Below, one piece after another: positions 9,703-64,000 of a DNA stretch of 64,000 bases; the stretch's first letter is position 1; every line of letters starts with the position of its first letter. A model generated the notes under the pieces. It ran no database searches. It was not told the DNA's origin and worked only from the letters and a program-made list of their open reading frames with translations. The translations under genes were made by a program, and so were the position numbers. Location: the NCBI RefSeq assembly GCF_004364555.1, contig NZ_SOAM01000002.1, positions 620,001 to 684,000 on the forward strand, read 5' to 3'. The DNA is from Amnibacterium kyonggiense (GTDB taxonomy: Bacteria > Actinomycetota > Actinomycetes > Actinomycetales > Microbacteriaceae).

Positions 9703-9804
9703 TCGCGGATCCGCAGAACCGTCGCGGATCCGCAGAAACTGCTCGACACGCCGCGGCGCACGGGCGCAGGCACGGCGTGTCGAGCCAGAACTGCGGATCC
9801 GCGA
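9703..9804. repeat. Long imperfect palindrome with an internal direct repeat
   Basis: Between convergent SURF1 and ABC-F genes. A 16-base sequence (TCGCGGATCCGCAGAA) occurs at 9703-9718 and again at 9722-9737. The second copy begins a 31-base arm (9723-9753) that pairs with 9773-9803: 26 of 31 positions match, with a 5-base internal mismatch and a 19-base loop. It could end both transcripts, but the size and the extra half-copy look more like a REP-type element than a simple terminator. Confidence 0.7.
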
Positions 9805-13748: not shown

Positions 13749-14504
13749 GTCCTCGATCCCACGCTCGCCGTGACCGCCGCCGTCGGCGCGGTCGTCCTCC
13801 TCGCCGGGGCGGTCCGTCGCGAGGCCGTCCGGGACGGTTTCGGGCTCCGCCCGGGTCCGCGCTCCCACGATGCGGCGGTGCCCGCGGCCCGGCCCCTCGC
13901 CCTCCCGCAGCCAGCGGCGCTCCTCCGCGGCGGCCAGCTGGTCGTCGGCCTGCTCCTCTACGGCGCCTCGCTCGCCCTGATGCTGCGCGCGCAGCTCGGC
14001 GTCGGCCCCTGGGACGTGCTCGCGCAGGGCGTCGCCCGGGTCACGGGCGTCCCCTTCGGCCTGGTGACGAACGGGATCGGGGCGCTCCTGCTGCTGCTCT
14101 GGGTCCCGCTGCGCCAGCGACCCGGGATCGGCACGCTGCTCAACGTGCTGCTCGTCGGCACGGCCGCGCAGGTGGTGCTGGACCTGATCGCGGTGCCGGA
14201 GGGGCTCCTCCCCCGCATCGCCCTGCTGGTCGGCGGGATGCTGCTGCTCGCGGTCGCGACAGCGGTCTACGTCGGAGCGGGCCTCGGTGCCGGTCCTCGC
14301 GACGGCCTCATGCTCGGCCTGCATCGGCGCTTCGGCTGGCCGGTCTGGCTCGCTCGTGCGGTGGTGGAGGGCTCGGCGCTCCTGCTCGGCTGGCTGCTCG
14401 GCGGGAACGTCGGCATCGGGACGATCGCGTTCGCCCTCGGGATCGGCCCGCTCTGCGGCGTCGCGATCCGCCTCCTCGCTCCGTCCCAGCTCCGCCGCCA
14501 CTGA
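13746..14504 (+). CDS. YczE/YitT-type integral membrane protein
   Basis: A 252-residue protein with five to six membrane spans. Two related motifs, GVGPWDVLAQG and GAGPRDGLMLGLHRRFG, are the repeated GxGPxD signature of the YczE/YyaS/YitT family. Function is unknown; a role in transport linked to vitamin B6 has been suggested for genes paired with MocR regulators. The start could be ATG 13746 or an in-frame GTG at 13737. Neither has a Shine-Dalgarno, and both fall in the operator dyad. A hairpin and a dispersed repeat follow the gene. Confidence 0.82.
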   Translation: MVLDPTLAVTAAVGAVVLLAGAVRREAVRDGFGLRPGPRSHDAAVPAARPLALPQPAALLRGGQLVVGLLLYGASLALMLRAQLGVGPWDVLAQGVARVTGVPFGLVTNGIGALLLLLWVPLRQRPGIGTLLNVLLVGTAAQVVLDLIAVPEGLLPRIALLVGGMLLLAVATAVYVGAGLGAGPRDGLMLGLHRRFGWPVWLARAVVEGSALLLGWLLGGNVGIGTIAFALGIGPLCGVAIRLLAPSQLRRH

Positions 14505-14525
14505 GCGCTCGGGATGATCTCGAGG

Positions 14526-14566
14526 ACGACGAAGGACCGCCCCGCGAGGAGCGGAGCGGCCCTTCG
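14526..14566. terminator. Terminator between yczE-like gene and the SUF operon end
   Basis: Stem CGAAGG-CCGC / GCGG-CCTTCG with one mismatch, 26 bases after the YczE stop. Its foot begins ACGACGAAGG, the same as in two other terminators in the window. Confidence 0.6.
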
Positions 14567-14575
14567 AGAGGGATC

Positions 14576-14686
14576 CCGGGCGCAAAGCGCCCCGGCGCCT
14601 CATGGCGCCGAAGGCGTGCCGGAGCGAAGCGGAGGCACAGCGAGCGCGGCGGGGCCGGCGAAGCCGGTCGCGACGCGCTCGCTCCG
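14576..14686. repeat. Dispersed hairpin repeat, copy 1
   Basis: An 111-base hairpin-rich element whose right edge is 2 bases from the stop of the DUF59 gene. Its second copy is at 63414-63525. Order: GGGCGC-AAA-GCGCCC hairpin, CGGCGCC-TCAT-GGCGCCG hairpin, a variable imperfect hairpin, then GGCCGGC-GAA-GCCGGTC inside an outer GCGAGCGC/GCGCTCGC pair. No open reading frame worth calling. Confidence 0.85.
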
Positions 14687-14688
14687 AA

Positions 14689-15018
14689 TCAAATCTGGAA
14701 GCCGATCGCGCGCATCATGTCCTTGCCGTCGTCGGTCATGCGCTCCGGGCCCCAGGGCGGCATCCACACCCAGTTGATCCGGAAGCGCTCGACGTGGCCG
14801 TCGAGGGCCTGCGCGGTCTCGTCCTCGATCACGTCGGTGAGCGGGCAGCCGGCCGAGGTGAGCGTCATGTTGATGACGAGGGCGTCGTTCTCGTCGTCCC
14901 AGTTCAGGTCGTAGATCAGGCCGAGGTCGACCACATTGACGCCGAGCTCGGGGTCGACGACGTCCTTCAGCGCCTCGGAGATCTCGTCGAAGCGCTCCGG
15001 CGCGAGCTCGACCGTCAT
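14689..15018 (-). CDS. Fe-S assembly factor, DUF59/SufT-PaaD family
   Basis: A 109-residue DUF59 (MIP18/PaaD-like) protein. The family's VVDPELGVNVVDLGLIYD lies at about 20-37, and the conserved cysteine in TLTSAGCPLTD at about 52-62. Such proteins help mature or transfer iron-sulfur clusters. It is the last gene of the SUF operon: its ATG overlaps the sufC stop (ATGA), so translation is probably coupled. A dispersed repeat starts two bases after its stop. Confidence 0.92.
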   Translation of the reverse strand: MTVELAPERFDEISEALKDVVDPELGVNVVDLGLIYDLNWDDENDALVINMTLTSAGCPLTDVIEDETAQALDGHVERFRINWVWMPPWGPERMTDDGKDMMRAIGFQI

Positions 15019-15785
15019 CAGGCGGAGGCCGCCGCGGCGGCGACGTAGCGGTCGTAGCCCTCGTCCTCGAGACGGTCGGCCAGCTCGGGACCGCCCTCCT
15101 CGGCGACGCGGCCCGCGACGAAGACGTGCACGAAGTCCGGCTTGATGTAGCGGAGGATCCGCGTGTAGTGCGTGATGAGCAGGACGCCGAGGTCGGAGGA
15201 GCCCTTCGCCCGGTTCACGCCCTCCGAGACGATCTTCAGCGCGTCGACGTCGAGGCCGGAGTCGGTCTCGTCGAGCACCGCGAACTTCGGCTTCAGCAGC
15301 TCGAGCTGGAGGATCTCGTGGCGCTTCTTCTCGCCGCCGGAGAAGCCCTCGTTCACGTTGCGCTCGGCGAACGCGCTGTCCATGCGGAGGTTCTCCATGG
15401 ACTGGCGGACGTCCTTCACCCAGCCGCGGATGGCGGGCGACTTGCCGTCGATCGCCGTCTTCGCGGTGCGGAGGAAGTTCGACACGGTGACGCCGGGGAT
15501 CTCGACCGGGTACTGCATGGCGAGGAAGAGACCGGCGCGGGCGCGCTCGTCGACGCTCATCGCGAGGACGTCCTCGCCGTCGAGCGTGATCGAGCCCGAG
15601 TCGACGGTGTAGCGCGGGTGCCCGGCGATCGTGTAGGCGAGCGTCGACTTGCCGGAGCCGTTGGGGCCCATCACGGCGTGGGTCTCGCCGCTCGAGATGT
15701 CGAGGTCGACGCCGCGCAGGATCGGCTTCGTGCCCTGGTCGGTCTCGATGGAGACGTGGAGGTCGCGGATCGCGAGGGTGGACAT
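15018..15785 (-). CDS. sufC: Fe-S cluster assembly ATPase SufC
   Basis: A 255-residue ABC-type ATPase of the SufBCD scaffold. Walker A is GPNGSGKST (about 38-46), the signature is FSGGEKKRHEI, and the Walker B/D-loop is the SufC-specific AVLDETDSGLDVDALK. ATP hydrolysis reshapes SufBD so that an Fe-S cluster can form. ATG start, 13 bases downstream of the Rieske ferredoxin gene and overlapping the DUF59 gene. Confidence 0.97.
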   Translation of the reverse strand: MSTLAIRDLHVSIETDQGTKPILRGVDLDISSGETHAVMGPNGSGKSTLAYTIAGHPRYTVDSGSITLDGEDVLAMSVDERARAGLFLAMQYPVEIPGVTVSNFLRTAKTAIDGKSPAIRGWVKDVRQSMENLRMDSAFAERNVNEGFSGGEKKRHEILQLELLKPKFAVLDETDSGLDVDALKIVSEGVNRAKGSSDLGVLLITHYTRILRYIKPDFVHVFVAGRVAEEGGPELADRLEDEGYDRYVAAAAASA

Positions 15786-15798
15786 GCGGATTCCTTCG

Positions 15799-16155
15799 TT
15801 ACGCGGGCAGTTCGGATGCGGGGACCGGGGTCGGGTCGACGAGCACGTCGTCGCCCTCCACGGTCACCCGGAAGACGGGCACCGGCTGGTAGGCCGGCAG
15901 GGTGAGCGGCTTGCCGCTCGTGAGGGAGAACTTCGAGCCGTGCGCCCAGCACTCCAGCGTCGGTGTTCCACTTCCTGGCGTCTCGACGAACCCCTCCGCC
16001 AGGGAGATGTCGCCGTGGGTGCAGGTGTCGCCGATGGCGAAGACGTCGCCGTTCGCGTCCTTCACGACGGCCACGGGCGTGCCGCCGACGACGACCCGGA
16101 GCGCGGAGTCCTGCTCGAGCTCGGCGAAGGAGCAGACGCGCTCGGGGGCGCTCAT
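15799..16155 (-). CDS. Rieske-type [2Fe-2S] ferredoxin of the SUF operon
   Basis: A 118-residue non-haem Rieske protein. The cluster ligands are visible as CTHG (C45, H47) and CWAHGSKF (Cys and His near 69-72). It probably supplies electrons for cluster assembly, as inferred from its fixed place between sufD and sufC in many actinobacteria. The ATG overlaps the sufD stop by four bases. Confidence 0.9.
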   Translation of the reverse strand: MSAPERVCSFAELEQDSALRVVVGGTPVAVVKDANGDVFAIGDTCTHGDISLAEGFVETPGSGTPTLECWAHGSKFSLTSGKPLTLPAYQPVPVFRVTVEGDDVLVDPTPVPASELPA

Positions 16156-27758: not shown

Positions 27759-27765
27759 CCCGAGC

Positions 27766-27803
27766 ACGACGAAGGCCCGGACCGTTCGGTCCGGGCCTTC
27801 GTC
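27766..27803. terminator. Bidirectional terminator between pgl and rbpA
   Basis: A 16-bp perfect stem (GACGAAGGCCCGGACC, loop GTTC) between convergent genes. The foot shares ACGACGAAGG with two other terminators here. Confidence 0.85.
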
Positions 27804-27817
27804 GTCAGGTCTGCTGA

Positions 27818-52111: not shown

Positions 52112-52163
52112 CCGGCACGACGAAGGGCCCCGCGGACGCCCGCGGGGCCCTTCGTCGTGCCGG
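52112..52163. terminator. Strong bidirectional terminator between the amidotransferase and HPr genes
   Basis: A 24-bp perfect stem with a 4-base loop (ACGC), seven bases from the HPr stop. Its foot contains ACGACGAAGG, shared with two other terminators. Confidence 0.9.
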
Positions 52164-57944: not shown

Positions 57945-58002
57945 TTCGCGTCGCGATCCGTGCCGCATCCGCGCGCTGAATGCGGCACGGATCGCGACGC
58001 GG
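57945..58002. repeat. Palindrome E, left of the nuclease gene
   Basis: A perfect 22-bp stem (57947-57968 with 57980-58001) and an 11-base loop. Its first 22 bases (57945-57966) are identical to the left arm of palindrome F at 58971-58992, on the other side of the gene at 58059-58964. Confidence 0.85.
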
Positions 58003-61850: not shown

Positions 61851-63308
61851 TCAGATGGAGATGGCCCGGTCGGTGGGGCGGACGGGCGCCGGGAGCTCCG
61901 TCCGGCCCTCGAGGTAGGCGTCCACCTCGGCGGCGACGCTGCGCCCCTCGGCGATCGCCCACACGATGAGCGACTGCCCGCGTCCCGCGTCGCCGGCGAC
62001 GAACACGCCGGGCTCCGAGGTCTCGAAGCGGCCGTCGCGGGCGACGTTCCCGCGCTCGTCGAAGGGCAGGCCGAGCTGGTCGGCCAGCTCGTCCTGCTCG
62101 GGGCCGGAGAAGCCCATCGCGAGGAGCACGAGGTCGGCGGGGATGAGCCGCTCGGTGCCGGCGCGCGGCACCCGCTTGCCGTCGACGTACTCCGTCTCGG
62201 CCACGCGCAGCTGCTTCACACGGCCGGCGCCGTCCGAGAGGAACTCGACGGTCGACGCGAGGTACTCGCGGCGGCCGCCCTCCTCGTGGGCGCTCGAGAC
62301 CTCGAACACGGTCGGCATCATCGGCCACGGCTGCGAATCGCTGCGGGTCGCGGGCGGCTGCTTCCCGATCGCGAGGTTCGTGACGCTCGCGGCGCCCTGC
62401 CGGTGCGCGGTGCCGATGCAGTCGGCGCCGGTGTCGCCGCCGCCGATGACGACGACGTGGCGGTCCTCGGCGGTGATCTGCGCGGGGACGTCGTCACCGG
62501 CGACCGCCTTGTTCGACTGGGTGAGGTACTCCATCGCGTAGTGGACGCCCTCGAGGTCGCGGCCCGGCACGGGGAGGTCGCGCGGCACGGGCGCGCCGGT
62601 CGCGACGACGACCGCGTCGTACCGGCGGCGCAGCTCGTCCCAGGCGATGTCCCGGCCGATCTCGACGCCCGCGCGGAAGCGCGTGCCCTCCGCGATCATC
62701 TGGTTCAGCCGCTGGTCGAGGCGGTGCTTCTCCATCTTGAACTCGGGGATGCCGTAGCGGATCAGGCCGCCGATCCGGTCGTCGCGCTCGTAGACGGCGA
62801 CGGTGTGGCCGGCCCGCGTCAGCTGCTGCGCGGCGGCGAGCCCCGCGGGGCCGGAGCCGACGACCGCGACGGTCTTGCCGGTCAGCCGCTGCGGCGGGTG
62901 CGGCTGCACCCAGCCGTTCTCGAAGGCCTGATCGATGATCGAGATCTCGACCTGCTTGATCGTCACCGCGGGCTGGTTGATCCCGAGGACGCACGAGGAC
63001 TCGCACGGCGCCGGGCACAGCGTGCCGGTGAACTCCGGGAAGTTGTTCGTGGCGTGGAGGCGCTCGATCGCGAGGCGGCCCTCGCCGCGGTGGATGAGGT
63101 CGTTCCACTCCGGGATGAGGTTCCCGAGCGGGCAGCCCTGGTGGCAGAACGGGATGCCGCACTGCATGCAGCGGCCGGCCTGACGGCGCAGCTCGCCGGA
63201 CTCCTGCTGCTCGTAGACCTCCTTCCAGTCCATGAGCCGGAGGGAGACCGGACGCCGCGGCGGGAGCTCGCGCTCCCGCGTCTTGAGGAACCCCTTGGGG
63301 TCAGCCAT
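61851..63308 (-). CDS. gltD: Glutamate synthase small subunit (NADPH)
   Basis: A 485-residue GltD, which passes electrons from NADPH through FAD and Fe-S clusters to the large subunit. The N-terminal cluster cysteines are CMQCGIPFCHQGCPLGN and CPAPCESSCVLG; the FAD motif is VAVVGSGPAGLAAAQQL (about 150-166), and the NADPH motif is VVIGGGDTGADCIG. Near the C-terminus GVFVAGDAGRGQSLIVWAIAEGR is intact. ATG start. It follows gltB after 230 bases that hold repeats, an unusually large gap for this pair. Confidence 0.97.
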   Translation of the reverse strand: MADPKGFLKTRERELPPRRPVSLRLMDWKEVYEQQESGELRRQAGRCMQCGIPFCHQGCPLGNLIPEWNDLIHRGEGRLAIERLHATNNFPEFTGTLCPAPCESSCVLGINQPAVTIKQVEISIIDQAFENGWVQPHPPQRLTGKTVAVVGSGPAGLAAAQQLTRAGHTVAVYERDDRIGGLIRYGIPEFKMEKHRLDQRLNQMIAEGTRFRAGVEIGRDIAWDELRRRYDAVVVATGAPVPRDLPVPGRDLEGVHYAMEYLTQSNKAVAGDDVPAQITAEDRHVVVIGGGDTGADCIGTAHRQGAASVTNLAIGKQPPATRSDSQPWPMMPTVFEVSSAHEEGGRREYLASTVEFLSDGAGRVKQLRVAETEYVDGKRVPRAGTERLIPADLVLLAMGFSGPEQDELADQLGLPFDERGNVARDGRFETSEPGVFVAGDAGRGQSLIVWAIAEGRSVAAEVDAYLEGRTELPAPVRPTDRAISI

Positions 63309-63390: not shown

Positions 63391-63413
63391 AGCGGGAAGT
63401 GAGTGAGTGGACA

Positions 63414-63525
63414 CCGGGCGCGAAGCGCCCCGGCGGCTCATGCCGCCGAAACGCGGAGGCGCGCCAGCGCCGAAGCAGCGCGCCGCGGCGGGGCCGGCGA
63501 AGCCGGTCGCGACGGGGACGCTCCG
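63414..63525. repeat. Dispersed hairpin repeat, copy 2
   Basis: The second copy of the element at 14576-14686, in the same orientation and again just after the stop of a minus-strand gene (gltB, 13 bases). Hairpins: GGGCGC-GAA-GCGCCC, CGGCGGC-TCAT-GCCGCCG, a variable GCGCG-rich part, and GGCCGGC-GAA-GCCGGTC. The second stem differs from copy 1 at a paired position on both sides, so pairing is kept. Confidence 0.85.
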
Positions 63526-63538
63526 CGGGCGGAGCCCG

Positions 63539-64000
63539 CTATCCATTCGTCACCTCCAGGATGCGCTTCCAGACGACGTCGCCGTCCGGGTCGAGGCCCT
63601 CCCCCTCGGCCTCCGCGCGGGTCGCGAGGACCGCGGCGTAGTTGCGCGGGAGGACCTTCACGAACTCGCCGACCACGGTGTCGAAGTCGGCGAGCATGCG
63701 CGTCGCGAGCGCGGAGTCCGTCGTCTCGACGTGCCGCTGGAGGAGGTCGCGGAGGATCTCCGCGTCCGCGCTGTCCATGGGCACGAGGTCGAGCTCGCCG
63801 GCGAGGGCGTCGATGTTCACCTGCTCCGGGGTCAGCGCGTGCACGTACGCGGTCCCCCCGGACATCCCGGCGCCGAGGTTGCGGCCGGTCGCGCCGAGGA
63901 TCACCGCGAGGCCGCCCGTCATGTACTCGAGCGCGTGGTCGCCCACGCCCTCGACGACGGCGGTGGCGCCGGAGTTGCGGACGAGGAACCGCTCGCCGAC
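63539..64000 (-). CDS. gltB: Glutamate synthase large subunit (C-terminal part)
   Basis: The last 153 codons of GltB; the gene runs off the right edge on the minus strand. The fragment shows the C-terminal GXGXG beta-helix domain: LVRNSGATAVVEGVGDHALEYMTGGLAVILG, then RNLGAGMSGGTAYV. GltB releases ammonia from glutamine and makes glutamate from 2-oxoglutarate. It pairs with gltD, with a repeat-filled gap between. Confidence 0.95.
   Translation of the reverse strand, partial: VGERFLVRNSGATAVVEGVGDHALEYMTGGLAVILGATGRNLGAGMSGGTAYVHALTPEQVNIDALAGELDLVPMDSADAEILRDLLQRHVETTDSALATRMLADFDTVVGEFVKVLPRNYAAVLATRAEAEGEGLDPDGDVVWKRILEVTNG

Follow-up and report, generated by a model that had tools for sequence, protein, structure and literature searches.

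The window, a 64,000-nt stretch of DNA (G000:C2:620001-684000) from the 3.7-Mb genome G000, contains two copies of an array of hairpins, both lying behind minus-strand genes and oriented in the sense of those genes. Copy 1 follows a gene of the Pfam family FeS_assembly_P, which we take to be SufT-like; the ABC ATPase gene directly ahead of it is presumably SufC-like. Copy 2 occupies the gap between gltB and gltD. The arrays begin 2 nt (copy 1) and 13 nt (copy 2) behind the stop codons, as the first-pass annotation had reported. The copies are homologous: in a genome BLAST search, the copy 1 query matched copy 2 (G000:C2:683414-683525, aligned to query positions 11-121) on the same strand with 81% identity and an E value of 5.1e-22. 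The features of both loci are collected in Table 1.

Table 1. Window features at and around the hairpin arrays, in window coordinates
Feature	Position	Strand	Remarks
Terminator-like hairpin beyond copy 1	14530..14566	-	predicted; counterpart in G002 alike by eye
Copy 1	14576..14686	-	same sense as upstream gene; model match 14573-14691; from direct reading, BLAST and covariance model
Copy 1, hairpin 1	14578..14592	-	GGGCGC/GCGCCC, AAA triloop on + strand
Copy 1, hairpin 2	14593..14610	-	loop ATGA in sense, TCAT on + strand
Copy 1, hairpin 3 (variable hairpin)	14616..14638	-	
Copy 1, hairpin 4	14640..14682	-	core 14653-14669 with GAA triloop on + strand, within longer outer stem
Upstream gene of copy 1, Pfam FeS_assembly_P	14689..15018	-	
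ABC ATPase gene	15018-15785		FeS_assembly_P gene stands directly behind
Unfilled place, no element	27759..27765	+	between Glucosamine_iso gene (6-phosphogluconolactonase-type, stop 27758) and terminator-like hairpin 27766-27805
Downstream gene of copy 2, gltD	61851..63308	-	Fer4_20, Pyr_redox_2
Copy 2, gltB/gltD gap	63414..63525	-	model match 63411-63530
Copy 2, hairpin 1	63416..63430	-	GAA triloop on + strand
Copy 2, hairpin 2	63431..63448	-	paired stem changes relative to copy 1, loop unchanged
Copy 2, hairpin 4 core	63492..63508	-	GAA triloop on + strand
Upstream gene of copy 2, gltB 3' part	63539..64000	-	C-terminal GXGXG motif

Read in the RNA sense (minus strand), the array comprises hairpin 4 with its outer stem, the variable hairpin 3, hairpin 2 and hairpin 1. 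The stems of hairpins 1 and 4 are identical in the window copies, and the loop of hairpin 1 is AAA in copy 1 and GAA in copy 2. The stems of hairpin 2 are CGGCGCC/GGCGCCG in copy 1 and CGGCGGC/GCCGCCG in copy 2 around a common TCAT loop, a paired change that is read directly from the letters; the earlier description of these homologous copies, their shared stems and the paired change is therefore correct. Including the copies described below, the unit is ~110-150 nt long, and the letters CATGAG and CGACCGGC..GCCGGCCCCG are retained in most copies. In the suf copies (window 14573-14691 and locus L126), GATC-like letters are seen by eye at both ends (GATYCGG ... CCCGGGATC) and may form a short terminal repeat.

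Further copies were found with covariance models in the seven genomes of the genus (G000 to G006). The first model, built from 7 copies, gave three strong matches in G000, namely both window copies and a copy in the fusA-tuf gap (C1:640267-640402), followed by a next-best match with an E value of 0.039. Across the genus, this model yielded at least 15 matches in six of the seven genomes. Two of these, G000:C3 (E 0.039) and G004:C42 (E 0.056), are not array-like, were missed by the second model and are excluded from the counts. The second model, built from 13 matches, returned at least 13 matches at E values up to 0.1 in five of the seven genomes (three in G000, six in G001, two in G002 and one each in G003 and G006), up to 150 candidates having been scored per genus genome; the models re-find the matches from which they were built, so that the counts depend in part on the building sets. 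The first-pass annotation would have been refuted by a genome with no further copies; instead, the window pair is joined by one more full copy in its own genome and by ten further matches in relatives. Half-elements comprising hairpins 2 and 1, or the portion of the array with hairpin 4, occur in G001 (L135, L134). Three full copies in the 3.7 Mb of G000 are few for a REP family, and the number of matches rises to six in G001.

The element is restricted to one genus. In a stricter scan of 299 genomes of the family (Microbacteriaceae, as judged from named relatives), with up to 12 candidates scored per genome, at least four genomes carry a match at E values up to 0.001, and all four belong to this genus. 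Plain BLAST against 60 relatives gave matches in 22 genomes; the listed matches outside the genus are all 21-78 nt long and were rejected as copies, one of them (L008) looking coding by eye, as do the short matches L003, L012 and L018 within the genus. A search of the suf 3' regions of 80 named relatives produced 108 matches at E values up to 10 (best E 0.025), all judged to be noise. An exact scan for the core pattern of hairpin 2 found mostly known copies; with one mismatch, reversed control matches equal or exceed the true ones in most genomes, and no copy count can be obtained. Against Rfam, the window matches only a tRNA at the gathering score, and the seven copy loci searched at E values up to 1 give three sub-gathering matches, none on an element. 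A phage source was considered and rejected, with no exact match to the hairpin-4 core in viral contigs; the hairpin 2-1 junction pattern has three matches there, possibly by chance. A single 50-nt match to plasmid sequences lies on a Streptomyces plasmid (E 2e-4).

The homologous copies occupy seven unrelated loci. The upstream genes are FeS_assembly_P (G000, G001), gltB (G000, G002) and fusA (G000, G002, G006 and, inverted, G003), and in G001 only, ndk and genes of the 6-phosphogluconolactonase type, the PspA type and for a polyprenyl synthetase. All 12 placed copies are extragenic, lying behind the stop codon and outside the upstream gene; the 13th match, G001:C256, stands outside this count. 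At the suf and pgl loci, the only two with a readable comparison, the element lies between the stop codon and a terminator-like hairpin. The suf copy of G001 may derive from another strain, because this assembly of 350 contigs is 4% contaminated and has two FeS_assembly_P loci.

Relatives without the element are found at the same places. With the element in place, gltB and gltD stand 230 nt (G000) and 161 nt (G002) apart. Without it, the distance is 95 nt in G004, filled by other sequence, and 21 nt in G003, 14 nt in G005 and 13 nt in G006; in G001 the genes overlap by 8 nt. Between fusA and tuf, the four genus members examined have 289-377 nt, compared with 71-178 nt at the 28 other-genus loci obtained from 58 other-genus genomes searched. 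Behind the FeS_assembly_P gene of G002, a terminator-like hairpin follows 13 nt past the stop codon with no element between; the element is also absent behind this gene in G003, G004 and G006, no FeS_assembly_P gene was found in G005, and the G001:C49 locus stops short of the place where its presence could be read. At the pgl locus, compared in two genomes, 7 nt separate the stop codon from the terminator-like hairpin in the window, and the element lies between them in G001 (L133). Behind ndk, only G001 among the seven genomes carries it. These unoccupied places identify the array as a dispersed, insertion-like element, with the qualification that, where several species have a copy at one locus, it may go back to a single old insertion.

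The core of the array is conserved as structure. In the 13-row alignment, 96.8% of the 278 pair cells of the modelled stems are standard (9/278 non-standard), and 9 of the 25 modelled pairs show two-sided change. The covariation score is 0.224; shuffled alignments score 0.065 (0/500 reach the real value) and slid structures no more than 0.038. The score is favored by the fitting of the alignment to the model, and rows that share ancestry can outscore shuffles even when no structure is present. That the modelled core is kept as structure while its sequence changes is supported. Over the whole predicted folds (290 pairs, sense reading), 20 changes are two-sided and kept, 8 are one-sided and kept, and 26 pairs are broken, a tally of seven pairwise comparisons that are mutually non-independent. 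The core hairpins are therefore well kept and the remainder less so: unpaired changes, which the first-pass annotation had named as evidence against a structural element if numerous, are few in the modelled stems but less rare across the whole folds. Fold energy alone does not single out the copies in a window of 72% GC. After GC correction, they rank 133 and 523 on the minus strand and 32 and 190 on the plus strand among 3195 scanned segments. The case rests on homology, core covariation and loop type, not on fold energy.

The loops follow a rule on one strand. On the strand antisense to the upstream gene, 21 of the 24 triloops are GNA (GAA, GGA or GCA) and none is TNC, as counted from perfect hairpins with stems of at least 5 bp in 13 copies; by distinct hairpin sequence, the fraction is 15/18. 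In the rest of the window, leaving out 400 bases around copy 1 and everything past 63300, 13 GNA and 8 TNC loops make 21 of 206 triloops of either polarity, and 14 loci of the genus without the element (stem at least 6) have 2 GNA and 2 TNC loops among 41 triloops. The enrichment corresponds to a Fisher p of 2.7e-15 under the assumption of independent copies, which does not hold: the copies are related by descent, and neither their loops nor their pairs can be counted as independent. Tetraloops follow no overall rule (GNNA in 7/20) and are dominated by the ATGA/TCAT loop of hairpin 2. In the window copies, which the antisense-strand shuffle test covered, the antisense strand folds better relative to shuffles than the sense strand, with z scores of -4.53 versus -2.19 for copy 1 and -2.87 versus -0.68 for copy 2. 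Beside hairpin 4, one position is A-C in the sense strand (G-U in the antisense) in 11 of the 12 rows with letters there. GNA triloops form very stable DNA minihairpins, according to Yoshizawa 1997 as cited in PMC6479982. The antisense GNA loops and the better antisense fold hint at a structure in single-stranded DNA, with an antisense RNA as the alternative, and a plain mRNA 3'-end element would seem less favored than either; the stem wobble counts given below do not agree, leaning slightly to the sense strand.

Several features of the element are reminiscent of known repeats. REPs are found at the 3' ends of genes and combine into composite BIMEs. According to PMC3116915 and PMC12306157, REP, BIME and REPIN sequences are extragenic, palindromic and dispersed with a shared consensus, and their doublets are predicted to fold into hairpins as ssDNA or as mRNA. 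Similar to the REPs and BIMEs of E. coli and Pseudomonas, the element is extragenic, palindromic with stem-loops, dispersed and built on a consensus common to its copies. It differs from REPs in its stems, which drift while the triloops remain GNA, in its small number of full copies in G000 and in its unit length, which is 14-40 nt for a REP of E. coli (PMC12306157). REP-like elements are also tied to RAYT transposases (PMC3116915), and this hallmark is lacking: no Y1/RAYT/IS200-type transposase (PF01797) was found in any of the seven genus genomes, in a search that was positive in 5 of 14 control genomes. The element is therefore REP-like in dispersal and form, yet is not a RAYT-dependent REP or REPIN. 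It belongs to the REP/BIME-like kind, with no RAYT-type mover found in those seven genomes.

Resemblances to other mobile elements are partial. The MIRUs of mycobacteria are actinobacterial elements of ~100 nt inserted at stop/start junctions within operons; they are tandem-prone and are not known as hairpin arrays. Likened by this general description rather than by sequence, the element shares the actinobacterial host, the approximate size and the gene-junction position of MIRUs and differs in being a hairpin array. The ends of IS200/IS605 elements form strand-specific ssDNA hairpins. These elements are named in PMC3116915, and the strand-specific loops of the element, along with the conserved A-C beside hairpin 4, resemble them; in contrast to IS200/IS605, no Y1 transposase was found in the genus genomes (0/7), and no target tetranucleotide was recognized by eye. 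With respect to MITE features, no terminal inverted repeat that the copies share was seen by eye, and no target duplication was seen in flanks that are too diverged for such a reading.

We give about an even chance to the reading that the array is a REP/BIME-like hairpin element of ~110-150 nt, dispersed in few copies and confined to one genus, whose antisense strand would fold as ssDNA. Among the three options offered by the first-pass annotation (a 3'-end RNA element, a REP/BIME-like unit or a protein-binding hairpin array), the REP/BIME-like unit fits best, given the seven unrelated loci and the relatives without the element there. The evidence supports both its dispersal at gene ends and the conservation of its core fold; a mode of movement and any function we infer as follows. 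The element would have spread as a non-autonomous unit, its antisense strand folding as single-stranded DNA through the GNA-looped hairpins, and some enzyme would recognize or copy this folded form. Landing between a stop codon and a terminator would do little harm. Once there, the element would enter the transcript as a structured spacer or 3' UTR, which may slow 3'-5' decay or lower the expression of the next gene. A more specific version, in which the array is an actinobacterial non-autonomous mobile element recognized as ssDNA by its GNA hairpins, moved by a non-Y1 enzyme and placed in fixed orientation between stop and terminator, is doubtful.

Blocking of 3'-5' exonucleases and tuning of expression have been proposed as functions of REPs. 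By analogy, the array could be a sense-RNA 3' element, that is, a selected mRNA hairpin array that blocks these exonucleases or tunes the next gene of an operon, a reading that we regard as fairly unlikely. Its orientation is that of the upstream gene in 11 of the 12 placed copies, nine of these 11 sense copies have a GGAG at their 5' end, 2-17 nt past the stop codon (the aligned GGAG of the ndk copy is ~39 nt behind the stop, and the fusA copy of G000 has none), and copies are present within the gltB-gltD and fusA-tuf gaps; the core covariation is likewise as such an element would have it. As sense RNA, the two fusA copies fold strongly (z -6.56 and -8.81). Sense G-U wobbles in the modelled stems slightly exceed those of the opposite type (7 versus 2), although the wobble test of strand is indecisive, with whole-fold sums of 41 sense and 25 antisense G-U pairs. 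Against this reading, copy 2 in the sense strand folds about as its shuffles do (44/200 fold equally well or better), with a best fold that differs from the four-hairpin form; the triloop rule belongs to the opposite strand; and the same genes stand without the element in several relatives. In addition, the array is inverted behind fusA in G003, where the whole of it is reversed, the GNA strand included, as matched part by part to G006 by eye. Of the earlier proposal that selection acts on structure, the upkeep of the core stands, as its covariation indicates, whereas selection as a 3'-end RNA element is not demonstrated: the GNA loops and the better fold of the window copies are antisense, the G003 copy is inverted, and the excess of two-sided changes is also what template switching produces (PMC8794818).

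In the account of template switching given there, two-sided pair changes arise without intermediates, so covariation alone is no proof of selection on RNA. The array could accordingly be a mutational by-product, in which ssDNA hairpins are re-copied arm to arm and acquire paired changes without functional selection; this we hold to be quite unlikely. Like hairpins made in this way (PMC8794818), the array has perfect stems and double compensatory changes, and the predominance of two-sided over one-sided kept changes (20 versus 8) is a pattern discussed in the same paper. In the sense reading, the suf pair has 5 two-sided changes to 1 and the fusA pair 7 to 1, but two comparisons do not fit: suf versus ndk in G001 has 2 two-sided and 5 one-sided changes, and the glt pair has 0 and 1. 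At the 3' end of fusA in G003 (L128), a perfect hairpin (15 bp, GAA loop) has the last codons and stop of fusA as its first arm, which looks like one template-switch event. Template switching is a mutational mechanism, however, and would not on its own account for homologous copies dispersed as a family over unrelated loci. Loop inversion would be its strongest footprint according to PMC8794818, yet the triloops keep one polarity (21 GNA, 0 TNC), and the conserved letters noted above are retained in most copies.

A transcription terminator or protein-binding hairpin array, arisen by duplication and acting as a 3'-end roadblock, would suit the 3'-end position and strong GC hairpins but is highly improbable, as a scan of 14000-16000, which covered copy 1, found neither a U-tailed terminator nor the hairpin plus U-tract of an intrinsic one, the suf and pgl copies are already followed by separate terminator-like hairpins, and copies within gltB-gltD and fusA-tuf would cut operons.

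Regarded as a REP-like family without a detected Y1 enzyme, the element offers a compact and manageable system in which to ask what else can spread such sequences. Its paired stem changes could reflect selection on RNA, recognition of ssDNA or template switching, and the strand rule of its loops makes these readings testable.

Other hairpins and repeats were seen in the window and its relatives. Among the strongest folds of the window are those at 57947-58001, a perfect 22-bp inverted repeat with an 11-nt gap, at 52112-52163 and at 9703-9804. The last is a long imperfect palindrome, probably intergenic, that contains three copies of GCGGATCCGC and 32-nt arms with 84% complementarity, a hairpin repeat of a different kind from the element. 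Behind ndk in G000 (L212, at the 3' end of the gene) and G004 (L214), a very long quasi-palindrome of repeated GCACGACAGCAGGAA-like units is apparently a second hairpin-repeat family. In G002, the 18-nt repeat TGCATGAGCCGCCGG occurs four times in tandem at C2:1169706-1169774. The terminator-like hairpins at window positions 27766-27805 and 52112-52163 have the arm GAAGG...CCTTCGTCGT in common.
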